Positions 1,541 through 50,413 of a stretch of 60,912 nt of DNA are shown here, in pieces. The translations under genes and the position numbers were made by a program. This stretch comes from a virus. Where the stretch lies: positions 1 through 60,912 of IMG/VR virus record IMGVR_UViG_3300038620_000113; one strand, given 5' to 3'. Below the pieces are notes generated by a model. That model searched no databases. It had not been told where the DNA came from and saw nothing but the letters and a program-made list of their open reading frames with translations. Each line of letters begins with the position of its first letter. Position 1 is the first letter of the stretch.

Positions 1541-2200
1541 TTAAATTTTATTCAATATATCTTTAGTTTCTTCTGCTATTTCTTGGTCTGATTCTGCATC
1601 AATAGGAATTGATTTAACCACTTTATTTTCTTTTCCAGTTACAATATCAGGCCCATGCACGTCTAAAATCAAATCTACGCAAAATCCACTATCACTTTTC
1701 CTACCACAACTTCTTACAAGAACAGAAAAATGGTAAATGATTTCTTTAAGTTCACCTAAATAATAATTTTCATAATCTTCATCACTCATTTCATCTATAC
1801 TTATATCTGTTCCCATTTCTCTATTGTAAAGATCAATTAATTTTTCTTCAATTTCATCAATGTTAAGCTCCCTATCGAAAGCTGTAATTCCAGTTCCCAT
1901 ACCTGTAGTAGCAAACCAAGCAGCATCTTGCATAACCGCTATACCTGTGTATACACCATCAAACAATTGATGGGCTTTACCTTTACTACCTTCAAAGTCT
2001 TCATCTTGTGCTTCGATTTGAGTTACAAGCCTCTCATACAAATCCTCCAAACTGTTTTGGATTTTGGGATTTGCAAATAAGTCTTCTCCGATAGCTTCAT
2101 TCACTCTACCAGCCCGGCGGCTTTCGCGAATTGGAGTTCTTCTGTTTTTACGGCTTGTGCCTATGATAAATTCGTTAAATGTGGGTAGTTTGCTTTTCAT
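1541..2200 (-). CDS. CTS-tagged cargo protein, unknown function
   Basis: 219 residues. It starts MKSKLPTFNEFI, the commonest CTS form in this window, then GTSRKNRR instead of the usual x-E-S. The T4-type [LI]-x-E cut site after the tag is therefore changed; another candidate, VNE, occurs at about residue 35. The 20-residue basic stretch after the tag (RKNRRTPIRESRRAGR) could bind nucleic acid in the head. The remainder is acidic and probably helical, with no known domain. The leader has AATAAATA followed by an A-rich tract ending CAATAATTATG, almost identical to those of the CTS genes at 21463 and 23163. Confidence 0.75.
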   Translation of the reverse strand: MKSKLPTFNEFIIGTSRKNRRTPIRESRRAGRVNEAIGEDLFANPKIQNSLEDLYERLVTQIEAQDEDFEGSKGKAHQLFDGVYTGIAVMQDAAWFATTGMGTGITAFDRELNIDEIEEKLIDLYNREMGTDISIDEMSDEDYENYYLGELKEIIYHFSVLVRSCGRKSDSGFCVDLILDVHGPDIVTGKENKVVKSIPIDAESDQEIAEETKDILNKI

Positions 2201-2230
2201 AATTATTGTTTTTTTATATTTATTTTAATA

Positions 2231-2263
2231 AAAAAAATCCCAAAAGCTTATGCTCTTGGGATT
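2231..2263 (-). terminator. Rho-independent terminator after the acidic CTS gene
   Basis: On the minus strand AATCCCAAGAGC pairs with GCTTTTGGGATT (one wobble pair) around an ATAA loop and runs into eight U. It ends the gene at 2286-3506. The next gene's late-promoter motif follows directly. Confidence 0.8.
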
Positions 2264-2285
2264 GTACTTTTAATAGTTAACGTTT

Positions 2286-3506
2286 TTAAAAACCAACTGA
2301 CTGTTGAGCCATTCCAACTGCTTTAGATGGATCGCCGTTAGCCTTTTTCCACAGGTCTTTTGCCATTTTGTTGGCTTCGTCTGGATCATATTCATCATCG
2401 CTTGAAATTGCATCCCCAAGTAAATCATGAACATAAGCAAAAAATTCACGTTTGTTACTAATTTTTTTTCCAGTTCTACCAACGTCTTCGTTAATATACT
2501 TTAAATCATATTCTTTTTTTTTACTTTCTGAAATAGCACCGGCACTATCTAAAGTCCAAAGAACTGCATCTTCAACTTCAACACCAAACTTTCTTGATGC
2601 TTTTTTAGCATCTCGCATAATATTTTCAAATCTATCACCTTGATCAGAAAATACAATATTCCCCTTTCCATCTTGAATTTCAAGACTTTGATGATTTCTA
2701 TCAATGTCAACATCATAACCCTTTCTATAATACATGTTAGCAATAGTTTTAATATCGTCTTTCATGGGATTTGCCATTTCATTAGTTTTACTTTCTGATT
2801 TTCCATAAACTTCATCCTCACCAAATGTTATGGTTCCATCAGATGCATCCCTGAACATATTACCAGTTTCCCAATCATAATCATCTTCATCTTCTTCATA
2901 TTCTAAGTCTTCAGGGTCATCATCAAGCCCATCCATATCATCATCCCTATAATCTGGTTCTTCTGGATCGGAATCATAATCATTATCATAGTCTTCAAAA
3001 TCGTCATCCTCTAAATCGTCTTCAAGTTCATTTCTTACATCAATTACATCAGCATGAAAATCATGACCACTATCATAACTTTGTGTAGAAGCATCGGTAA
3101 AGTCATCAATAACTTCAAACTGATCGCGTCTCAATTCATAACTTCTAAGTGTATCATAATCTTCAACATTGTGAATTACTTGATCAAAAGCAATACTATA
3201 TAGACCACGATAACTACCTTCAACATAACCTGTTTTTCCTACCATATCTTTAGGAACATCAGAATTTTGAAGAACCCTTACACGAGAACCAATATGAATT
3301 TTATCGTATTCATTATTTGGATAAATGTTACCATCATATGTTTGAGGAAAACGCTTTTTGGCTTTATCCATAAAACGATCTGCTTGTTTGTCTTGATGGT
3401 GATCAAAGCTTCCAACCTGCGTAAAGCCTTCCAAACCAGTGTAGTTTTCTTTCAAATAATCACCGAATGTTTTTATTTTGTTGTGAATTCTTTTATTTCT
3501 AGACAT
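2286..3506 (-). CDS. Large acidic CTS-tagged protein
   Basis: 406 residues. The CTS is offset by nine residues: after MSRNKRIHN comes KIKTFGDYLKEN, with predicted cleavage after YLKE. A small KOW-like segment follows (RVRVLQNSD...GKTGYVEG, about 74-95). The middle (about 150-215) is an extremely acidic Asp/Glu run with DYD, DDD and EDD repeats, and could be a DNA mimic or a charge spacer in the head. The C-terminal 140 residues look folded and include a helical end (MAKDLWKKANGDPSKAVGMAQ). AATAAATA repeats precede the start. Function unknown; packaged cargo is inferred from the tag. Confidence 0.75.
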   Translation of the reverse strand: MSRNKRIHNKIKTFGDYLKENYTGLEGFTQVGSFDHHQDKQADRFMDKAKKRFPQTYDGNIYPNNEYDKIHIGSRVRVLQNSDVPKDMVGKTGYVEGSYRGLYSIAFDQVIHNVEDYDTLRSYELRRDQFEVIDDFTDASTQSYDSGHDFHADVIDVRNELEDDLEDDDFEDYDNDYDSDPEEPDYRDDDMDGLDDDPEDLEYEEDEDDYDWETGNMFRDASDGTITFGEDEVYGKSESKTNEMANPMKDDIKTIANMYYRKGYDVDIDRNHQSLEIQDGKGNIVFSDQGDRFENIMRDAKKASRKFGVEVEDAVLWTLDSAGAISESKKKEYDLKYINEDVGRTGKKISNKREFFAYVHDLLGDAISSDDEYDPDEANKMAKDLWKKANGDPSKAVGMAQQSVGF

Positions 3507-13595: not shown

Positions 13596-14864
13596 TTAAA
13601 ATATTGAATTAAATACCACAAGAGAATCACTAAGTTCTGAATAACCCATAACCTTAATAAATCTGTTAATAGTATTAAGAAATGTTACTCGAAACATTGT
13701 ATCATAATCAAACTTAGGTGCAATCTCTTGAGGAAAATCGCCCACTTTATATGCAAATACATTAACTGCGTTACTGCTTAACTTTGTATCAACATTTGTA
13801 TGTATATAGTAATACTTAATTTTTTCACCAGATAATATAAACTGATATTTGTCTTTATACTTTGAGTTATAAAGTAAATAATTATAATAAGCTGCAGCTT
13901 TTAACTGAATGGGGGTTCCCTTGTGAATTTCTAACGCAGTAGTATCATTAATAATCCAGTTTTCATAGTTATTGCAACTCTTTGTAATAGCAATATCTTC
14001 TATATCGCAAAGCTTGTATTCTTTTTTAATTTCACTTATGTTTTTAACAAACTCATTTATAGAAAAGTTTTTAGAATTCTTAAATATATAAACAAGTTGT
14101 TCTTTAATTTTATCTCGAACAAACTTTGGGGTTTCACCTCTTACAAGTTCTACACCTTTTGATGAAAGATTGTCATAAGGGTTTTTGATAAGCTTTTCAA
14201 AATTTCTATTAAGCGATCCATCCGAATCAAAACCTGTAGGTTCCCACCTTGGAGCCAACACATACTTTTTCTTTGCAAGCCAAAGTCCGGTTACTGAATA
14301 AGCTTCTGGTTCAAAAACCTGATAAGGTTTGCCACGATTATTATAATATGGCACATAAAATTCATTAGAAAGTTTTTTAAGTTTATTTTCTATAACACCT
14401 TTTAATCTGTTATTATAAAGAGTTACTATATAATCAATTTCATCAGTATTATCAGGATTTATATTAGTACTTTTAAAAACTTGATCCAATTCAACATAGT
14501 TTGAATCTGTATCAATATAATTAACGACATTTTCTTTTATCGGCTTAACCTTTTCATGATTTATACCCATTGCAGTATGAAGTTCTTTATCTTTATGCCA
14601 TGCTTTCTTAAAGTAATTATCAATTACATGAGCCATTTCTTTAATTTGCTTTTGCCCTTGCAATGTTACAGCTTCTGCAACATTTTCATTGTAACATGTA
14701 AAATTTTTATAGCCAATGGTTCCATACATAGAATTAATAAGAATCTTAAATGCACTAGCTTGATTATCATAAAAATCTTTAAGATGTTTAAGACGTTTAA
14801 TTTCAGATTCTATTTCATCTTTAGTTGGATTTTCGGAAAGATTTGCATAATTGAATTCTTCCAT
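13596..14864 (-). CDS. 43: DNA polymerase gp43, C-terminal (polymerase) part of a split family B enzyme
   Basis: 422 residues, about half of a family B polymerase. Motif B is present near the N-terminus (KILINSMYGTIGY, about 42-54), then motif C (YIDTDSNYVEL, about 117-127) and the thumb region. Motif A (DxxSLYPS) and the 3'-5' exonuclease motifs are absent, and no N-terminal half lies upstream. The protein starts MEEFNYANLSENP. Split gp43 genes with separate exonuclease and polymerase parts are known in some T4 relatives. The missing half must lie outside the window. No intein C-fragment is visible at its start, so the break is a plain gene split. Confidence 0.8.
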   Translation of the reverse strand: MEEFNYANLSENPTKDEIESEIKRLKHLKDFYDNQASAFKILINSMYGTIGYKNFTCYNENVAEAVTLQGQKQIKEMAHVIDNYFKKAWHKDKELHTAMGINHEKVKPIKENVVNYIDTDSNYVELDQVFKSTNINPDNTDEIDYIVTLYNNRLKGVIENKLKKLSNEFYVPYYNNRGKPYQVFEPEAYSVTGLWLAKKKYVLAPRWEPTGFDSDGSLNRNFEKLIKNPYDNLSSKGVELVRGETPKFVRDKIKEQLVYIFKNSKNFSINEFVKNISEIKKEYKLCDIEDIAITKSCNNYENWIINDTTALEIHKGTPIQLKAAAYYNYLLYNSKYKDKYQFILSGEKIKYYYIHTNVDTKLSSNAVNVFAYKVGDFPQEIAPKFDYDTMFRVTFLNTINRFIKVMGYSELSDSLVVFNSIF

Positions 14865-23739: not shown

Positions 23740-24555
23740 TTGGAAGAAAAAAATGATAAAAAAACACAAGAAAATGTTGCCAGTCAGTTAGACAACATTC
23801 TTAAAGAAACTGAAATCGAAGGGCAACAATCCAGTTCTGGTGAAATTGTAGATAATTCTGAACTTGTTCAAAAGTTTGAAAATGAAACACAAGAGCAAAA
23901 AGATAAAGCTGGTGAAAAAGCTAAAAGCACAATTATAAGTATTGCTAAGCTGTATTTTACAGAAGAACTGTTAAACTCTTATCCAAGCATTTATGAAAAA
24001 ATGCAAATTGATATTGATTCTTTAGCTGAACTATTATATCAAATGGATTCTATAAGTTCTGTAGTAGAAATGATGCGTAGGTTAATACAACTGGGAGAAG
24101 CAACACAACCCAGATTTTTTGAAGTGTTTACAAATTCTATTAAAGAATCAAAAGATCTTTCGGTTCAAAAGTCCGAATTTATATCTTCAGTTGAACATTC
24201 ATATCAAAAACTTCGAGATGAAATAAAAGAACAAAGAGAGTTAGAAGGAAATTACGAAATTAATGCGGTTGAAAACTATGAAAATCAAAAACGTAAAATT
24301 CAAGTTAGCAGTGTTAAAGAACTTGCTGAATTAATTAAGGAGGGTGATGAAAGTAGTATTAAAGGGCGTTTCAAAAAACTTGAAAAAGGTAAACCTAGAG
24401 ATCCATCGGTTAAGTCATCGGAAAATAAACAGGCACCAACAGAATATGTTGAAGAAATGAAAAAAAGAAACGAAGAAGAACGTGATGATGAATCATATAT
24501 AGAAAGCGAGATTGATGACTATTTTAATAAATCAAGTTCCGAATTTACAGACTAA
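23740..24555 (+). CDS. Putative small terminase subunit (gp16 position)
   Basis: 271 residues with a TTG start (MEEKNDKKTQEN). An acidic, Gln-rich N-terminus is followed by a helical core (about 65-140: AKLYFTEELLNSYPSIYEKMQIDIDSL, cited only by position). A coiled, charged C-terminal half ends YFNKSSSEFTD. Assignment rests on position only: it overlaps the start of the large terminase gene by 44 bp, as gp16 precedes gp17 in T4. No helix-turn-helix is obvious. It could be another virion-assembly protein. Confidence 0.45.
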   Translation: MEEKNDKKTQENVASQLDNILKETEIEGQQSSSGEIVDNSELVQKFENETQEQKDKAGEKAKSTIISIAKLYFTEELLNSYPSIYEKMQIDIDSLAELLYQMDSISSVVEMMRRLIQLGEATQPRFFEVFTNSIKESKDLSVQKSEFISSVEHSYQKLRDEIKEQRELEGNYEINAVENYENQKRKIQVSSVKELAELIKEGDESSIKGRFKKLEKGKPRDPSVKSSENKQAPTEYVEEMKKRNEEERDDESYIESEIDDYFNKSSSEFTD

Positions 24556-25111
24556 AAAAAGTAAAAAATTGAAATCAAATATTTATAAAAGTGATAGGAA
24601 TGATGAAGAAAAGAATAAAAACAGGATATGGACAACCGAAGAAGTTAATAATTTAATTCACTTAATAAGAGATAAAGGTTATAATCCTAAAAACCATCCG
24701 TTTTTTGAAGGGAATCCAAACTGGAAAGCTCCGGGTATTAATTATGAATACACTGAAGAAGAATTTATTGAATGTATAAAGTGTAGCAGGGATGTTGTAT
24801 ATTTTGCAAACAACTATGCTTATTCTATGACTGATGAAGGTGTTAGACAACTAAACCTTCGAGACTATCAGGAAGATGTTTTAGAAACATATCAAAATTA
24901 TCAACACATTGTATTTCTTTCATCTAGACAAATGGGAAAATGCATTGATGGACTTGAAACACTAATGCTTAAAAACATTAATAATCGAATGGAAATCGAA
25001 TTACCGATATTTGAATTATTTTATCAAGAAAAACAAAAACATAAAAAATTAAATATTTTTGATAAAATAGTTTATAATTTGTATAATCTACTTTTTAAAC
25101 TAAATAAATAA
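24512..25111 (+). CDS. 17: Large terminase N-terminal part fused to a split-intein N-fragment
   Basis: 199 residues. Residues about 90-143 match the T4 gp17 N-terminus: FANNYAYSM, LNLRDYQEDVLE and then SSRQMGK, the beginning of the Walker A motif. At Cys144 (TGC at 24941-24943) the ATPase is interrupted. From there the sequence reads CIDGLETLMLKNIN, an intein block A with the nucleophilic Cys1, and continues for 56 residues to a stop. No intein block B (TxxH) is present, so the split lies early, as in the atypical TerL inteins from metagenomes. The C-intein with the rest of the terminase must lie outside the window. Start at 24512 or 24515. Confidence 0.75.
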   Translation: MMTILINQVPNLQTKKSKKLKSNIYKSDRNDEEKNKNRIWTTEEVNNLIHLIRDKGYNPKNHPFFEGNPNWKAPGINYEYTEEEFIECIKCSRDVVYFANNYAYSMTDEGVRQLNLRDYQEDVLETYQNYQHIVFLSSRQMGKCIDGLETLMLKNINNRMEIELPIFELFYQEKQKHKKLNIFDKIVYNLYNLLFKLNK

Positions 25112-25122
25112 CATAAAAAAAT

Positions 25123-26133
25123 ATGTCAGATCAAAACCAAGATTTTTATCGCAATATCGCAGAGCAAAAAGAAAATGAAGGAAAACAACAATCCCAGTCA
25201 GAACAAGACCTTGGATATGTTGATCCACAGCACCAACAAAAAGGAATGGAAGAAAAGGCTAAAGAAATAGATCAAAGGGTTGAATATACTGTAGGAACAC
25301 AACCCGTGAATATGGACGATCTTCCATCAAAGGGATATTTTTATCCGAAAGAAACACAAATTGGAATTAAAGCTGCAACAACAGAAGAAATTCGCCACTT
25401 TTCATCAATGGATGAAACCGATAGTGTTGATTTTATGAATAAGCTTAATATGATTCTTAACAAGTGTGTTGAAATGTGGGTTAATGGAAGTAAAGTTAGC
25501 TATAAAAACTTATTGGAAGTAGATCGTTTTTATTTGGTTTTTGCAGTACGTGATTTTACTTTTAAGGATAAGCCTAATAAATTAACAATTAAAGGTGATG
25601 ATGGTTCAGGTAGTACGTTTGATATTGAATTGACTTCAGCGATATTTCCAACACTTGAAATTCCCGAAAAACTAAAACCTTTTTATAGTGAACAAGAAAG
25701 ATGCTTTGTTTTTAAGTCTAAGCATGAAGAGGTTGGAGAATTTAGAATATATGTTCCACAAGTTGGTTCAGGTCAATCACTCGTTGATTATATGCGAGAA
25801 AAACAGCGAAATAATGAATCTTATGATGCGTCTGCATTAAAGTATGTTCCTTACATCGCTAAGCATTATAAAGAAATATCTACAAATGATAAAATTGAAA
25901 TGAAAATGGGTGAGGTTAAAGGATGGTCATACAAAAAAGAACAGTATATCCTTGATGCAGTTCAACATTTAGAAGAATCCTATATGGATCTTGGTTATAT
26001 TATTACAGATGAAGAAGGCCGTCCACCACACCATAAAAACTTCAGCGGTGAAGAGGTCCGCACCCCAATATCGTTTCCGAGGGGATTCAAGGCTCTATTT
26101 ATCGAAGAGGATGCACTATCAGAGTTTGAATAA
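25123..26133 (+). CDS. Baseplate hub protein, T4 gp26-like
   Basis: 336 residues. The N-terminal 60 residues are Gln/Glu-rich linker. The core starts NMDDLPSKGYFYPKETQIGI, then IKAATTEEIRHFSSM and LEVDRFYLVFAVRDFTFKD. This is the pattern of the T4 baseplate hub family around gp26/gp51 ('LPS.G..Yp....i.v...t..Ei.......D.v..l..il..c'). It acts in assembly of the tail hub. The 3' end overlaps the next gene by 23 bp, suggesting translational coupling. Confidence 0.6.
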   Translation: MSDQNQDFYRNIAEQKENEGKQQSQSEQDLGYVDPQHQQKGMEEKAKEIDQRVEYTVGTQPVNMDDLPSKGYFYPKETQIGIKAATTEEIRHFSSMDETDSVDFMNKLNMILNKCVEMWVNGSKVSYKNLLEVDRFYLVFAVRDFTFKDKPNKLTIKGDDGSGSTFDIELTSAIFPTLEIPEKLKPFYSEQERCFVFKSKHEEVGEFRIYVPQVGSGQSLVDYMREKQRNNESYDASALKYVPYIAKHYKEISTNDKIEMKMGEVKGWSYKKEQYILDAVQHLEESYMDLGYIITDEEGRPPHHKNFSGEEVRTPISFPRGFKALFIEEDALSEFE

Positions 26134-26449
26134 TATTACTGATCTGGAATGGCAGCTTATAAGTTGCTTTCAAATGTTTCAATTCGATATTACTACCCTT
26201 GAAAAAAACATATTTCAAATTAGTAAATATGTTGAAGGTATGAATCCCAATACATTTGAAAAATGGCCGTTTTGGCGAGTTCAAATGTTTTGGGATAATA
26301 CAAAAGAAGCTATTGAAGAAGAAAAACGTCAACGCGATGAACAAGAAAAACAACAAAATACAAAAAGCGCTGATTCCGAGCGGCGTAAGCAAATGAGTGA
26401 TGCTAAAAAGTCTATGCCTTCCATGCCAAAAACACCAAAAATCAAGTGA
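26111..26449 (+). CDS. Probable tail assembly protein downstream of the hub gene
   Basis: 112 residues from the ATG at 26111, within the end of the hub gene in another frame. The N-terminal half is hydrophobic and aromatic (LISCFQMFQFDITTLEKNIF, EKWPFWRVQMFWDNTKE), and the C-terminal half is a Glu/Gln/Lys coil ending in PSMPKTPKIK. T4 has a small chaperone-like product next to gp26, and tape-measure chaperones often look like this. The stop lies inside the 5' arm of the terminator at 26441. Confidence 0.55.
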   Translation: MHYQSLNNITDLEWQLISCFQMFQFDITTLEKNIFQISKYVEGMNPNTFEKWPFWRVQMFWDNTKEAIEEEKRQRDEQEKQQNTKSADSERRKQMSDAKKSMPSMPKTPKIK

Positions 26450-26477
26450 GGTTCCAAAAAATCTCACTTGATTTTTT
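26441..26477 (+). terminator. Strong terminator after baseplate genes
   Basis: ATCAAGTGAG and CTCACTTGAT form a perfect 10-bp stem with a 12-base loop, followed by TTTTT. The 5' arm overlaps the last codons of the upstream gene. Confidence 0.9.
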
Positions 26478-26503
26478 ATGTTTAAGATTTTTTATTTTTT
26501 CCT

Positions 26504-26870
26504 TTAATATATTTTTTTAAATGTTTTTCTATATGATGTTTTAAAATCAGTCATAATTATATAGTCTATAAAAGCTATAGCATAGGGAATATTAGAATAT
26601 GTGTTTATTGAATAATACTCTAAATTCACTGGATCATCGATTCTTTCATGCTTGAAATGAAATCTAAATTCATCTATTTTTTTATTGTGATATAGATATA
26701 TAAAATCTAAATGTGAAAACTTATTAATACATTTATTATTAACCATATAAGTTAATGATTTTGGCATAAAATATGAGCTTGAATTGTCAATATTTTTTAG
26801 AATAAAGTTATTGTATTTTTTTGTTTTTTTGCAAAAAATTTCCGAACATATATTTTTTTGTGTTTACCAT
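26504..26870 (-). pseudogene. DGPA-family gene broken by a homopolymer frameshift
   Basis: The gene starts at an ATG at 26868-26870 (MVNTKKYMFGNFLQKNKK) and meets a stop after A7 (T7 on the plus strand at 26816-26822). With one A fewer the frame continues as YNNFILKNIDNSSSYFMPK and on to the C-terminus at 26504. The sister at 26883 has KYNNYILRSVYDKN at the same place, which proves the alignment. It holds a degraded motif (RIDDPVNLEYYS). It may be dead, expressed by slippage, or a sequencing indel. Confidence 0.6.
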
Positions 26871-35344: not shown

Positions 35345-36562
35345 TTATTTTTGCTGTTTTTCGTGGCGAAAGGTACGGTAACAGCCTTTCCGGTCGATAT
35401 TCAATGCCGCATTATAATCGGCATTAGTTGAATATCCACAATCAATACATCTAAACCGCTCTTGAGAGGAACGATTTTCACGATGCAATGAACCACAATT
35501 AGAGCAAGTCTGACTAGTATAAGCCGGTGAAACCTTCATCAACTTGATACCAGTTTCACTACAAACTTGCTCTAGTTTCTTTATAGTTTTAGCGTAAGAC
35601 CAGTATTGAAGTTTGTTGTTAGTCTTTTTGCCTAACTTGGATTTATGCTTGACTTGTTTGAGGTCTTCGATAGAAAGCAATTCCACACCGTTTAGGTCTA
35701 ATTTTTGGTTAATACAATAATTGATTAAATTATCTCGTTGAATCAGTTTCCGCTTGTAAGCCTTAGAGCCGCGTTGTTTACGGGTGATTTGTTCATAGAG
35801 GCTATCAAATTCTTGACCTATTGATTGATTATCACTAGTCTGAATAAAGACCTTCTGACCTAAGTCAATTCCTATATGAGAACAATCGGGATTAGCCATT
35901 GGCTGCGGGGCATTCTTCTCCCAAAACAAGTTAATAAATGTCTTACCTGATTTTCTTTGTACTTGAATAGTATTTTTGAGTTGATACTGGCTATTGAGTA
36001 ACTGATTGGAATGACGGTGTTGTTTAAGTGGTAGATGAATGGTATAATAACGGTTTTTAGTATTGTAGTTGCGGTAGGGAGTGGTTATTTTAACGAAGTT
36101 ATCAAAATGATTTCCCCTTCTTATGTTACAAAGAGCACTCTCTAGGCTTAAATTAACATTATTCAAATTAGGCTTAGTAAAATATTTGCTTAAATGAACC
36201 GGCTTGAGATTGAGTTTTTTGAATCGCTTTTGTAAGAATGGATGATTGGGCTTATGTTTTATCAAGTAAGCATAAACCTTTTGATAGCGCTTATAACGGC
36301 GCTGGTTGGCTTTGGAACTTTGAGATCGAATGATTTCGGATGCCTGTTTATAGGCGGCTTTCCGATACTTAGAATGCTCAATGTTACAAACAATAGGTAA
36401 ATTAGAATTGCCTAGAGTGGCCCGCAAAGGCAATTGATTGGCTAGAATCAAATCTAAGTAATGATTAACACAACGAGTATAATCTTCCATTACTTGATTC
36501 AGGAACCTTAACTTACCTTGATTGGTTATCCGAGTAATGCTATGCCGTGAGGTTTTAATCAA
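35345..36562 (-). CDS. tnpB: TnpB RNA-guided nuclease of an IS200/IS605-type element
   Basis: 405 residues, the standard TnpB size. RuvC-I is SHIGIDLGQKV (about 231-241), RuvC-II ELLSIEDLKQV (about 292-302) and RuvC-III NADYNAALNI (about 380-389). The zinc ribbon is TCSNCG...FRCIDCG. All catalytic D-E-D residues are present. Its GC content is clearly above the neighbours', showing recent transfer. No TnpA transposase is visible, so the element is non-autonomous or TnpB is domesticated. Its reRNA would overlap the 3' end and run below 35345. A 60-bp remnant of another copy lies at 31231. Confidence 0.9.
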   Translation of the reverse strand: MIKTSRHSITRITNQGKLRFLNQVMEDYTRCVNHYLDLILANQLPLRATLGNSNLPIVCNIEHSKYRKAAYKQASEIIRSQSSKANQRRYKRYQKVYAYLIKHKPNHPFLQKRFKKLNLKPVHLSKYFTKPNLNNVNLSLESALCNIRRGNHFDNFVKITTPYRNYNTKNRYYTIHLPLKQHRHSNQLLNSQYQLKNTIQVQRKSGKTFINLFWEKNAPQPMANPDCSHIGIDLGQKVFIQTSDNQSIGQEFDSLYEQITRKQRGSKAYKRKLIQRDNLINYCINQKLDLNGVELLSIEDLKQVKHKSKLGKKTNNKLQYWSYAKTIKKLEQVCSETGIKLMKVSPAYTSQTCSNCGSLHRENRSSQERFRCIDCGYSTNADYNAALNIDRKGCYRTFRHEKQQK

Positions 36563-47692: not shown

Positions 47693-48994
47693 ATGAATAA
47701 CAACACAGTAAAAAATTTTTGTAACAAGTTACAAAAGTGGTATTCAGAATCTTACAATAAAGTAACAGTTTCAAATAATCTAAACACTGAAGATATTCTT
47801 ACTGAAATTATTATTCAGTGTACTTACTTATGGTTTTTGAAGGAATTAAAAATTATTTCAAGCGACTTATTTGATAAACAAAAGATTTATACTATTTTAA
47901 AGGCTAGTAGTAATGATACTGGTTATTTTAACGGAATTTTACAAAATGTATTTTTTAATGGGATGAAAACAAATCTTAGTGAATATGCTATAGTTCAAAG
48001 TAAAGACTTGTTTTTAGATATTGAAAATTTTGAAAGCTTGTTAAACAAAATACCTTATTTAGATACAGAACTTTTTAATAATTCAAAGTTTCTTTATGAT
48101 AACCCATCAGAACTAGATTCTACACATATTCCAAATACACTGTTTTTCAATGATAACAAAAGTGGTATCATTGACTTGCTCAGTCAATATTCTTTTTTAA
48201 CAAATGAAAAAGAAGTATCACAATCAGATTCTGAATTAGACCCAGAAGTACTAGGAACCGTTTTTGAAAATTTACTAGCACAGTATAATCCCGAAACAAA
48301 GACAACCGCTAGGAAACAGTCTGGTTCTTTCTATACCCCCAAAGAAATTGTAAATTATATGGTAAATGAATCAATTGTTAAACAACTTTCTGAAAAAACA
48401 AGTTATCATGAAGATTCTATTAGAAATTTAGTTGTACATGAAAAAGTTGATAGTTTTAAAAATGAAAATAATAAAGAAGAATTAGTAAGAATAATAAGTA
48501 GGTTAAAAATTCTTGATCCTGCTTGTGGTTCTGGTGCTTTTCCTATTGGAGTTATTCAAAGACTTGTTAAGGTTCTTAAAGTTCTTGATTCTGATAATAC
48601 ACTATGGAAAAGGTGTCAACAGGAAATAGCCGAAGGATATGATAAAGATTTTCCAGAACCCACAAGTTTAGATATTGATAAAAGATTAAACTTAATTGAA
48701 GAAACTTTTAACCAAAATAATAAAAGTTTAGATTATTCAAGAAAGTTTTTTATTTTAGTAAACAATTTATATGGTATAGATATTCAGCCGATGGCAGTTC
48801 AAATTTGTAAACTTAGATTTTATCTTTCTTTGCTTATAGAACAAGAAATTGATTATAATGAAATAAATTATGGAATATCTTATTTTCCAGACTTAAGCCA
48901 AACTTTTATTGTTGAAAATGCTTTAACAATGGACATGAATGATAAAAATTCTAAAAAGCCAAAAGGTCATATTGGAATAGATGATATAATGTAG
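47693..48994 (+). CDS. Eco57I-type adenine methyltransferase, N-terminal part before an in-frame amber
   Basis: 433 residues. GSFYTPKEIVNYMV (about 208-221) and motif I, LDPACGSGAFPIGVIQ (about 274-289), are those of Eco57I/type IIG and BREX-like adenine methyltransferases; LYGIDIQPMAVQICKLR (about 360-376) is motif II-III. The sequence stops at TAG (48992-48994), before the catalytic NPPY. The next gene continues in the same frame. Composition is as AT-rich as the phage. Either the two halves work as separate polypeptides, or the amber is read through, or this is a recent break. Confidence 0.75.
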   Translation: MNNNTVKNFCNKLQKWYSESYNKVTVSNNLNTEDILTEIIIQCTYLWFLKELKIISSDLFDKQKIYTILKASSNDTGYFNGILQNVFFNGMKTNLSEYAIVQSKDLFLDIENFESLLNKIPYLDTELFNNSKFLYDNPSELDSTHIPNTLFFNDNKSGIIDLLSQYSFLTNEKEVSQSDSELDPEVLGTVFENLLAQYNPETKTTARKQSGSFYTPKEIVNYMVNESIVKQLSEKTSYHEDSIRNLVVHEKVDSFKNENNKEELVRIISRLKILDPACGSGAFPIGVIQRLVKVLKVLDSDNTLWKRCQQEIAEGYDKDFPEPTSLDIDKRLNLIEETFNQNNKSLDYSRKFFILVNNLYGIDIQPMAVQICKLRFYLSLLIEQEIDYNEINYGISYFPDLSQTFIVENALTMDMNDKNSKKPKGHIGIDDIM

Positions 48995-49003
48995 AACAAT
49001 TTT

Positions 49004-50413
49004 ATGAATAAGTTAAAAGTAAACAGTTTTGATATAGTGATCGGAAATCCCCCATATATAAGGACAAAAGACATTCCTCAATACACAAAGCAACATTTAA
49101 GTTCCTCTTACGAATCAGCGACAAACTCCTATGACATCTACGTCTGCTTTATTGAAAGGAGCATGAGGCTTTTGGATAATACAGGGGATCTTGTATTTAT
49201 ACTACCGACCAAATTTTTTAATGCAGACTATGGCTTGGGTATACGCAAGTTGATATGGAGGAATCGATGGCTATATAAGGTGCTTGATTTCAAGGCTGCC
49301 CAAATGTTTGAGTCCTCAACAAATTATACCTGTATTCTTCATCTCAAAAGCTCCTCTCAAAACAGCTATCAATATACAAGCTTCGGCAGCAATCCTTCAA
49401 AAGAAACCTTTATTGCCTATATCAATGACGCTCGTATTGATCATCAAACTATAGAAGAATTTACTGATAATACTTCTAAGCTGACAGAGGGCTATTGGTA
49501 CTTTATTCCTCCTGATAAGAGGCCCGTGTTTAGCAAGATGGAAAGAATGGGAGTTACCTTAGAGGGATTAACCGATGATATTTTTGTGGGACTCCAAACG
49601 AGTGCAGACCCTATATATATACTAGAAAAGACAAAGCAAGGGTATTATTATTCGAAATACCTGGAAGCCCATGTAGCACTGGAAGACGAATTTATGCGCC
49701 CCTTGCTTCGGGGCGGCGAGATTCAACGCTACAAAGTAGATTTTCAGAATCAGTGCATTATTTTTCCCTACCATATCAATGGCAACCGCGCCAGTTTGAT
49801 CCCGGCAAATGAGCTCCAGCAAAACTATCCGTTTGTATGGGATTATCTGTGCCGCTGCGAAGAGAAACTACGAGGCCGCGAGCAAGGGAAAATGGATCAT
49901 GAAGGCTGGTATGGGTTTGGTAGGACACAAAACATTGCGGCTTTTGGTCAATCTAAAATCATGACACAGGTGTTGGCCAGGGGAGCAGCGATGGTGCCGG
50001 ATAGAGAGGGGATGTACCGCTTCGTAGGGGGTGGCAACGCAGGCGGGTATGGCATCGTACTAAGACAGGATGCGGGTATTTCCTATGAATGTTTGGTAGC
50101 GCTGCTTAATAGCAAATTGCTGGAAACCTATCTACAGTATCATTCTAGCCTATTCCGGGGTGGCTATTATTCTTACTCAAAGCGGTACTTGAAGGAACTG
50201 CCTATAGTTATTCCAAACGAGGAGCTACAGGCTTATCTAGCAGCTCGTGTCAATAGCATACTTACCAAAAAGACACAAGATCGTGATACAACTGCCGAAG
50301 AACAAGAGATCGACCGCTTAGTCTACCAGCTCTATAGGCTGACTTATGATGAAGTTTTGGTAATTGATCCCGAACCGCCCTTTAGCCGGGAAGCATACAA
50401 CAACAATAATTAA
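49004..50413 (+). CDS. Eco57I-type adenine methyltransferase, C-terminal catalytic part
   Basis: 469 residues. Motif IV, DIVIGNPPYIRTKDI, stands at residues about 9-23. A long target-recognition domain follows, with YWYFIPPDKRPVFSKMERMG, GLQTSADPIYIL and the TaqI-like C-terminal segment. GC content rises sharply from about 49050 on (GGCCGCGAGCAAGG-like stretches near 49870), unlike the N-terminal half and all neighbours, so this part is a recent bacterial acquisition. The frame is the same as upstream with only a TAG between. No endonuclease motif was seen; protection from restriction is likely. Confidence 0.75.
   Translation: MNKLKVNSFDIVIGNPPYIRTKDIPQYTKQHLSSSYESATNSYDIYVCFIERSMRLLDNTGDLVFILPTKFFNADYGLGIRKLIWRNRWLYKVLDFKAAQMFESSTNYTCILHLKSSSQNSYQYTSFGSNPSKETFIAYINDARIDHQTIEEFTDNTSKLTEGYWYFIPPDKRPVFSKMERMGVTLEGLTDDIFVGLQTSADPIYILEKTKQGYYYSKYLEAHVALEDEFMRPLLRGGEIQRYKVDFQNQCIIFPYHINGNRASLIPANELQQNYPFVWDYLCRCEEKLRGREQGKMDHEGWYGFGRTQNIAAFGQSKIMTQVLARGAAMVPDREGMYRFVGGGNAGGYGIVLRQDAGISYECLVALLNSKLLETYLQYHSSLFRGGYYSYSKRYLKELPIVIPNEELQAYLAARVNSILTKKTQDRDTTAEEQEIDRLVYQLYRLTYDEVLVIDPEPPFSREAYNNNN

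Follow-up and report, generated by a model that had tools for sequence, protein, structure and literature searches.

How might a phage package its DNA when the gene for its large terminase subunit (TerL) breaks off within the Walker A motif? This question is raised by an open reading frame (ORF) in a linear viral record of 60,912 bases, a fragment rather than a completed genome, which was analysed as a whole and is referred to here as the window. The ORF encodes 198 aa from an ATG at 24515 (a TTG at 24512 is the other start codon) and has its stop codon at 25109-25111 (Table 1). Residues 66-144 match the terminase large subunit PHROGs 5989 (E 1e-16), 36964 (E 2e-13), and 2 (E 1e-4), and over 106 aa the N-extein is 47-53% identical to the TerL proteins of intein-less relatives (L021, L029, and L048). 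In such relatives the Walker A motif reads SRQxGKT; the window gene has the first residue of an intein, Cys1, where the Thr would stand. Together, the PHROG matches and the alignment of SRQMGK with SRQxGKT place a terminase-type Walker A motif in an N-terminal ATPase region like that of T4 gp17. The Walker B motif and the nuclease domain are missing both from the gene and from the window and are found in the C-halves of relatives; thus, the gene is classed as half of a TerL rather than as a whole one. A preliminary description had recognized gp17-like sequence up to SRQMGK, followed by 56 residues starting with Cys and a stop. The ORF and its PHROG matches bear this out, and the gene is confirmed as a real T4 gp17-like large-terminase N-half that ends in an N-intein (IntN). 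It overlaps an upstream gene for a probable small terminase subunit (TerS), whose product has no PHROG or Pfam match and is related by blastp to the TerS proteins encoded in the same place in relatives (28% identity, E 4e-9 for L020; also L048, L060, and L002).

Table 1. Features of the terminase region, in window coordinates
Feature	Position	Strand	Evidence
Probable small terminase subunit (gp16-like), overlapping the TerL N-half	23740..24555	+	blastp to TerS of relatives; TerS-TerL order
TerL N-half/N-intein fusion gene (198 aa)	24515..25111	+	ORF and PHROG matches
N-extein (residues 1-142), which stops partway through Walker A	24515..24940	+	PHROG terminase matches
SRQMGK, Walker A as far as its catalytic Lys; Cys1 of the intein follows	24923..24940	+	Alignment with relatives
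N-intein of 56 aa with Cys1 and block A, lacking block B	24941..25108	+	N-intein HMM, 31.5 bits, E 1.8e-8
Region of the predicted first intein helix, LPIFELFYQEKQKHKK, corresponding to alpha-1 in the HINT fold	25001..25048	+	Alignment with relatives; helix 26-35 of the L119 model
Additional helix at the C-terminus of IntN, LNIFDKIVYNLYNLLFKLNK, which may clamp onto the first IntC helix (putative pairing)	25049..25108	+	Conserved in N-halves; helix 42-54 of the L119 model
Junction lacking the endonuclease, IntC-TerL-C, tail sheath, and tube genes that relatives carry at this point	25112..25122	.	Gene order in relatives
Conserved gene (PHROG 36717) located behind the tail tube gene of relatives ("gp26-like" is a name of convenience)	25123..26133	+	31-36% identity to relatives

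The tail that follows GK directly consists of 56 residues, opens with CIDGLETLMLKN, and is followed by the stop. A tblastn search of phage records with the tail alone gave no match, so the tail is detectable only by profiles. A hidden Markov model (HMM) was therefore built from the tails of 54 relatives, with the window left out. It scores the window tail at 31.5 bits (E 1.8e-8), whereas the highest score among 2000 shuffled versions of the tail was 12.1 bits; of the 417 ORFs in the window only the TerL N-half exceeds the threshold. Thus, the N-intein beginning with Cys that the preliminary description had proposed is upheld, and its Cys1 directly after GK and block A are as in class 1 inteins. 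The start of the window IntN diverges from the consensus of the family, and the HMM alignment covers the tail only from residue 13 on, so that the block A strand is assigned from Cys1 and from position. Block B was correctly described as absent; in relatives it lies in the C-fragment. When aligned with the structure model discussed below (strands 12-17 and 20-25, helix 26-35), the tail ends after strands 1-2 and helix 1 and before block B, which corresponds to the atypical split site S2 as defined in PMC13014065. Because about 60 homologous N/C pairs are found at the same site, it is strongly supported that the 56-aa tail is an early-split N-intein within the Walker A motif of TerL.

The first sequences found to align into the tail came from two huge-phage genomes, LR756500 (462 kb) and LR756501 (735 kb), and from six metagenomic contigs. 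All of their N-halves have the Cys after GK and a final helix of the type LTxxEKIKYxLWKLYxxL; over a larger set of relatives IntN is 42-72 aa long. In six contigs that were read fully, the gene order is TerS, TerL-N plus IntN, a free-standing endonuclease of ~360 aa, and the C-intein (IntC) plus TerL-C, followed by the tail sheath gene where the contig continues. IntC starts with a helix of its own (for example MINILKNTIILLINFIEKIEYR), includes the His of block B (ADxH), and has mostly SHN as its last residues; the next residue is T, sometimes S, at the position of the Walker A Thr. The Vsr/EDxHD-like endonuclease between the halves has weak matches to MTES_1575/DUF559, below the cut-off, and is also weakly near the "Mobile intron protein" 3r3p and Vsr (E 0.02-0.25). 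Among distinct C-inteins, 44 lie behind a full endonuclease and 8 behind a truncated one, while 7 follow the N-half without an endonuclease and 6 have another ORF in between; 15 were not assessable, as the contig or sequence stretch ended or the intein was of another kind. Four inteins of the helix type are fused in one ORF (L119, L160, L365, and L407). In three loci (L123-L125) the N-half runs straight into an apparent remnant of the endonuclease tail (WELDWNKDPKQTLKKCIKFLND) that overlaps the start of the C-half, as if a deletion had fused IntN to the remnant. Distances among IntN and among IntC sequences correlate beyond those of the exteins (partial r 0.27, reached in 0 of 1000 permutations), which is weak support since the permutation does not model the tree. 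Viral contigs were scanned with C-intein alignments, the N-intein alignment being too variable for scanning; a scan of bacterial and archaeal genomes with the C-intein alignment gave no match. The same huge phages show two further features: in LR756500 (L002, 9624-10436), and likewise in contig G014, a second, partial terminase-like gene with SRQMGIS in place of GKT lies directly 3' of TerL-C, and in LR756501 (L003, 1484-4966 (-)) a ribonucleotide reductase gene contains an apparent contiguous intein (NPCIVGDTL...).

One of the natural fused members, L119, was modelled using an alignment of C-fragments only (pLDDT 83.5, pTM 0.75). After the two strands and the first helix, the model has two extra helices, 42-54 and 59-73, exactly where the other members are split, and then the rest of the HINT fold. 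Among known structures VidaL resembles it most (Z 18.7, rmsd 1.9 Å over 139 aligned residues) and is also the best sequence match of the family in the PDB (E 7e-11); 90 chains match with Z of 5 or more, and the predicted HINT fold applies to the fused relative L119 only. From this model we infer that the split fragments are kept in contact by pairing between the helix at the end of IntN and the one at the start of IntC.

Comparison of occupied with empty sites suggests how the intein came to lie there. The TerL genes of L048, which is intein-less, and L018, which has the intein, are ~91% identical in DNA on both flanks, and the 1,736-bp cassette of L018 separates the GK codon precisely from the T codon. 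In addition, intein-less genes are scattered among intein-bearing ones in the tree of N-halves. The precise insertion and the scattered distribution are both marks of homing. The sequences thus indicate that in relatives this Walker A site holds a mobile cassette composed of IntN, a Vsr/EDxHD-like endonuclease gene, and IntC. Insertion between GK and T makes the Walker A Thr the +1 splicing nucleophile and the Walker A Lys the -1 residue; judging from the motif, the unspliced halves would be unable to form a P-loop.

Other systems share parts of this arrangement. In cyanobacterial DnaE, the halves of an essential enzyme are likewise encoded at distant places and carry split inteins; however, that split is canonical, the gene is chromosomal, there is no endonuclease, and the insertion site is unrelated. 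The "fractured" genes attributed to Dassa et al. 2009 (gp41-1, NrdJ-1, and others) reportedly consist of two half-genes with a split intein and a free-standing endonuclease. The relatives of the window gene share all three, with the endonuclease between the halves, whereas the window has no endonuclease, its halves would lie apart, and the split is early instead of at the canonical endonuclease site. TerL inteins of Ackermannviridae (Klebsiella phage Magnus, Vibrio phage VP-1) occupy the same GK/T site and have a related C-intein, but each is one uninterrupted intein without the added helix pair. In VP-1 the TerL with the contiguous Walker A intein (L016, 2443-4659) is cut again further down by a GIY-YIG-like stretch, and a separate downstream gene (L016, 4748-5785) starts with an IntC that ends in SHN before CSFLGS (+1 Cys), possibly at the site of AceL-TerL. 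The TerL of Salicola phage SCTP-2 (MF360958) seems to be encoded in three pieces, as its "terminase large subunit" gene (L015, 4959-5852) has an IntC start, a TerL middle, and a second N-intein at its end (CLDGETTVKLRD...).

In the natural atypically split inteins that have been described, IntN has 15-37 aa, and the break falls behind strand 2 in VidaL and PolB16 or behind helix 1 in AceL-TerL and GOS-TerL [PMC13014065]. The likeness to AceL-TerL drawn by the preliminary description holds for the position of the split, after the first helix at site S2, but does not extend to kinship, since the window family is a different group. AceL-TerL and GOS-TerL (also the consensus Cat, PDB 6dsl) reside in a large terminase and are split at S2 as well; however, their IntN measure 25 and 37 aa, respectively, and both have a +1 Cys [PMC11766414], whereas the window IntN has 56 aa and the +1 residue of nearly all its relatives is Thr or Ser. 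A +1 Thr/Ser inside Walker A, as opposed to a +1 Cys, implies another insertion site. VidaL (PDB 6vgv, 6vgw), the best match of the family in sequence and structure, is also a natural early split with a short IntN, but this IntN has 16 aa and ends after strand 2 at site S1 [PMC13014065], unlike the window family with its 42-72 aa, its split after helix 1, and its added helix on each fragment. The fractured-gene arrangement itself is already known. A search of literature outside subscription papers gave no description of a Walker A TerL split-intein clade, so that the helix-extended clade provisionally appears to be undescribed.

If the window gene encodes only the N-half, then where is the other half? 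The preliminary description placed neither the C-intein nor the rest of the terminase in the next 36 kb; this is correct and extends to both strands of the whole 60.9-kb window, in which no C-intein (by HMM), no terminase C-half, no other piece of TerL (by PHROG), and no intact gp17 gene is present. The window also has no free-standing endonuclease, versus most relatives, which have one. When viral contigs were scanned with C-intein alignments, the gp26-like gene, and the TerL C-part nearest the window lineage, neither a close relative of the window phage nor a C-half assignable to it came up. Relatives almost always keep the order TerS-TerL-sheath-tube-gp26-like gene; in the window the TerL-C/sheath/tube block is absent between 25111 and 25123 and elsewhere. 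Since this block is missing exactly where the N-half stops, relocation is the simplest reading. Separated halves do occur in the family. They lie 12.4 kb apart on one strand in LR756501. In the 152-kb contig of L155 (G007), the N-half is at 1,797-2,300 (+) and the C-half, then the sheath gene, at ~24,507-26,753 (-), ~22 kb away on the opposite strand, and both have intact splice residues (L276 1797-2300 (+); L277 10508-12754 (-)). This is the clearest trans arrangement seen, and because the halves are on opposite strands, neither read-through nor cis RNA splicing could join them. Another contig (G013) has an orphan C-half with the sheath gene and no N-half within 15 kb, and in G009 about 20 kb separate the terminase unit from the gp26-like gene. 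That the halves of a gene are scattered is nothing exceptional in this lineage, since the DNA polymerase N- and C-parts of LR756500-502 are also separate, distant genes; the window itself encodes only the C-terminal part of a family B DNA polymerase (13596-14864 (-), PHROG 262 positions 497-840 of 856) and no N-part. Elsewhere the window encodes a TnpB/Cas12f-like protein (35345-36562 (-), PF07282, E 6e-21) and an Eco57I-type N6 methylase domain that spans two adjoining ORFs (47693-48994 and 49004-50413 (+)), as if the frame were broken in one gene.

The absence of the block could instead mean that the halves are actually adjacent and that the contig lost ~5 kb (endonuclease, C-half, sheath, and tube) through misassembly or a strain deletion, in which case the intein reading would stay and the claim of distance would fall. 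The window contig is unique and uncompleted, the exact 25111/25123 junction is found in no second record among those open to the search, and the C-half, sheath, and tube directly follow in nearly all relatives, where the missing block is contiguous. However, the break falls cleanly between two genes that are 11 nt apart with both ORFs intact, and true dispersal is seen in LR756501 and G007, as is the distance in G009; such a loss is thus considered unlikely, although it is the most serious of the alternatives.

It is less probable still that the N-half is a relic whose C-half has been lost, with packaging carried out by another, intact terL elsewhere in the genome. The lack of a partner in the window, or of an assignable orphan in the scanned public contigs, fits this idea, as does the divergent N-terminal strand region of the window IntN, and there is no known close relative with which to compare selection on the gene. 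Yet the N-extein is ~50% identical to intact TerLs, and the ORF is open, overlaps TerS in a normal operon, and keeps Cys1 and both helices. Finally, RNA splicing of terL is documented in phage ICP1 [PMC10448857], a precedent for a group I or II intron that splits the gene here, with the tail being intron sequence read by chance. This seems very improbable: no Rfam intron match is found in the window, the tail is conserved as protein, and the partner genes of relatives have their own start codons and encode a HINT-fold IntC ending in HN.

We therefore favor trans-splicing, with a probability of roughly 0.8 for the reading as a whole: an N-half with a split N-intein here, an IntC-TerL C-half encoded elsewhere in the genome, and protein trans-splicing that restores Walker A. 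The window gene would supply the N-terminal part of the packaging ATPase and the N-fragment of an atypically split class 1 intein, and a second gene, outside the fragment, would supply IntC-TerL-C. IntN, with strands 1-2, helix 1, and the added helix, would dock on IntC, at whose start the second added helix lies; once complete, the HINT domain would excise itself and join the Walker A Lys to the Walker A Thr, yielding SRQMGK-T. Failure to splice would leave no P-loop and hence no packaging. The intein presumably was once a homing cassette in which a free-standing Vsr-like endonuclease gene lay between IntN and IntC; in the window lineage, the endonuclease would have disappeared from the locus, and the C-half would have been relocated together with sheath and tube. 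Homology supports trans-splicing well. The analysis shows the N-half with its N-intein, the family, the exact insertion site, and the predicted fold of a fused relative, and from there we infer the presence of the partner, the splicing event, the helix clamp, and the dependence of packaging on splicing. As for the earlier proposal that packaging depends on trans-splicing of two distant genes, the split intein stands by homology, and the distance is plausible given the precedents (12 kb; 22 kb on opposite strands), with the partner absent from the window fragment.

Taken in this way, the locus would probably, though with less assurance than the reading above, belong to a widespread and apparently undescribed clade of phage split inteins in the terminase P-loop, with a Lys/Thr junction and a dedicated helix pair; in some large phages this intein would have been freed from its homing cassette, so that the motor is made from two genes many kb apart, even on opposite strands. 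The helix-extended IntN/IntC pairs could supply many new split inteins from nature, perhaps tight and orthogonal ones, that use Cys1/Thr+1 chemistry. In the series formed by the relatives (empty site, cassette with endonuclease, decayed endonuclease, fused, and scattered), the life cycle of a fractured gene may be read directly. Trans-splicing would be placed at the most sensitive point of phage packaging and, since the splice junction is the P-loop itself, splicing could gate packaging.
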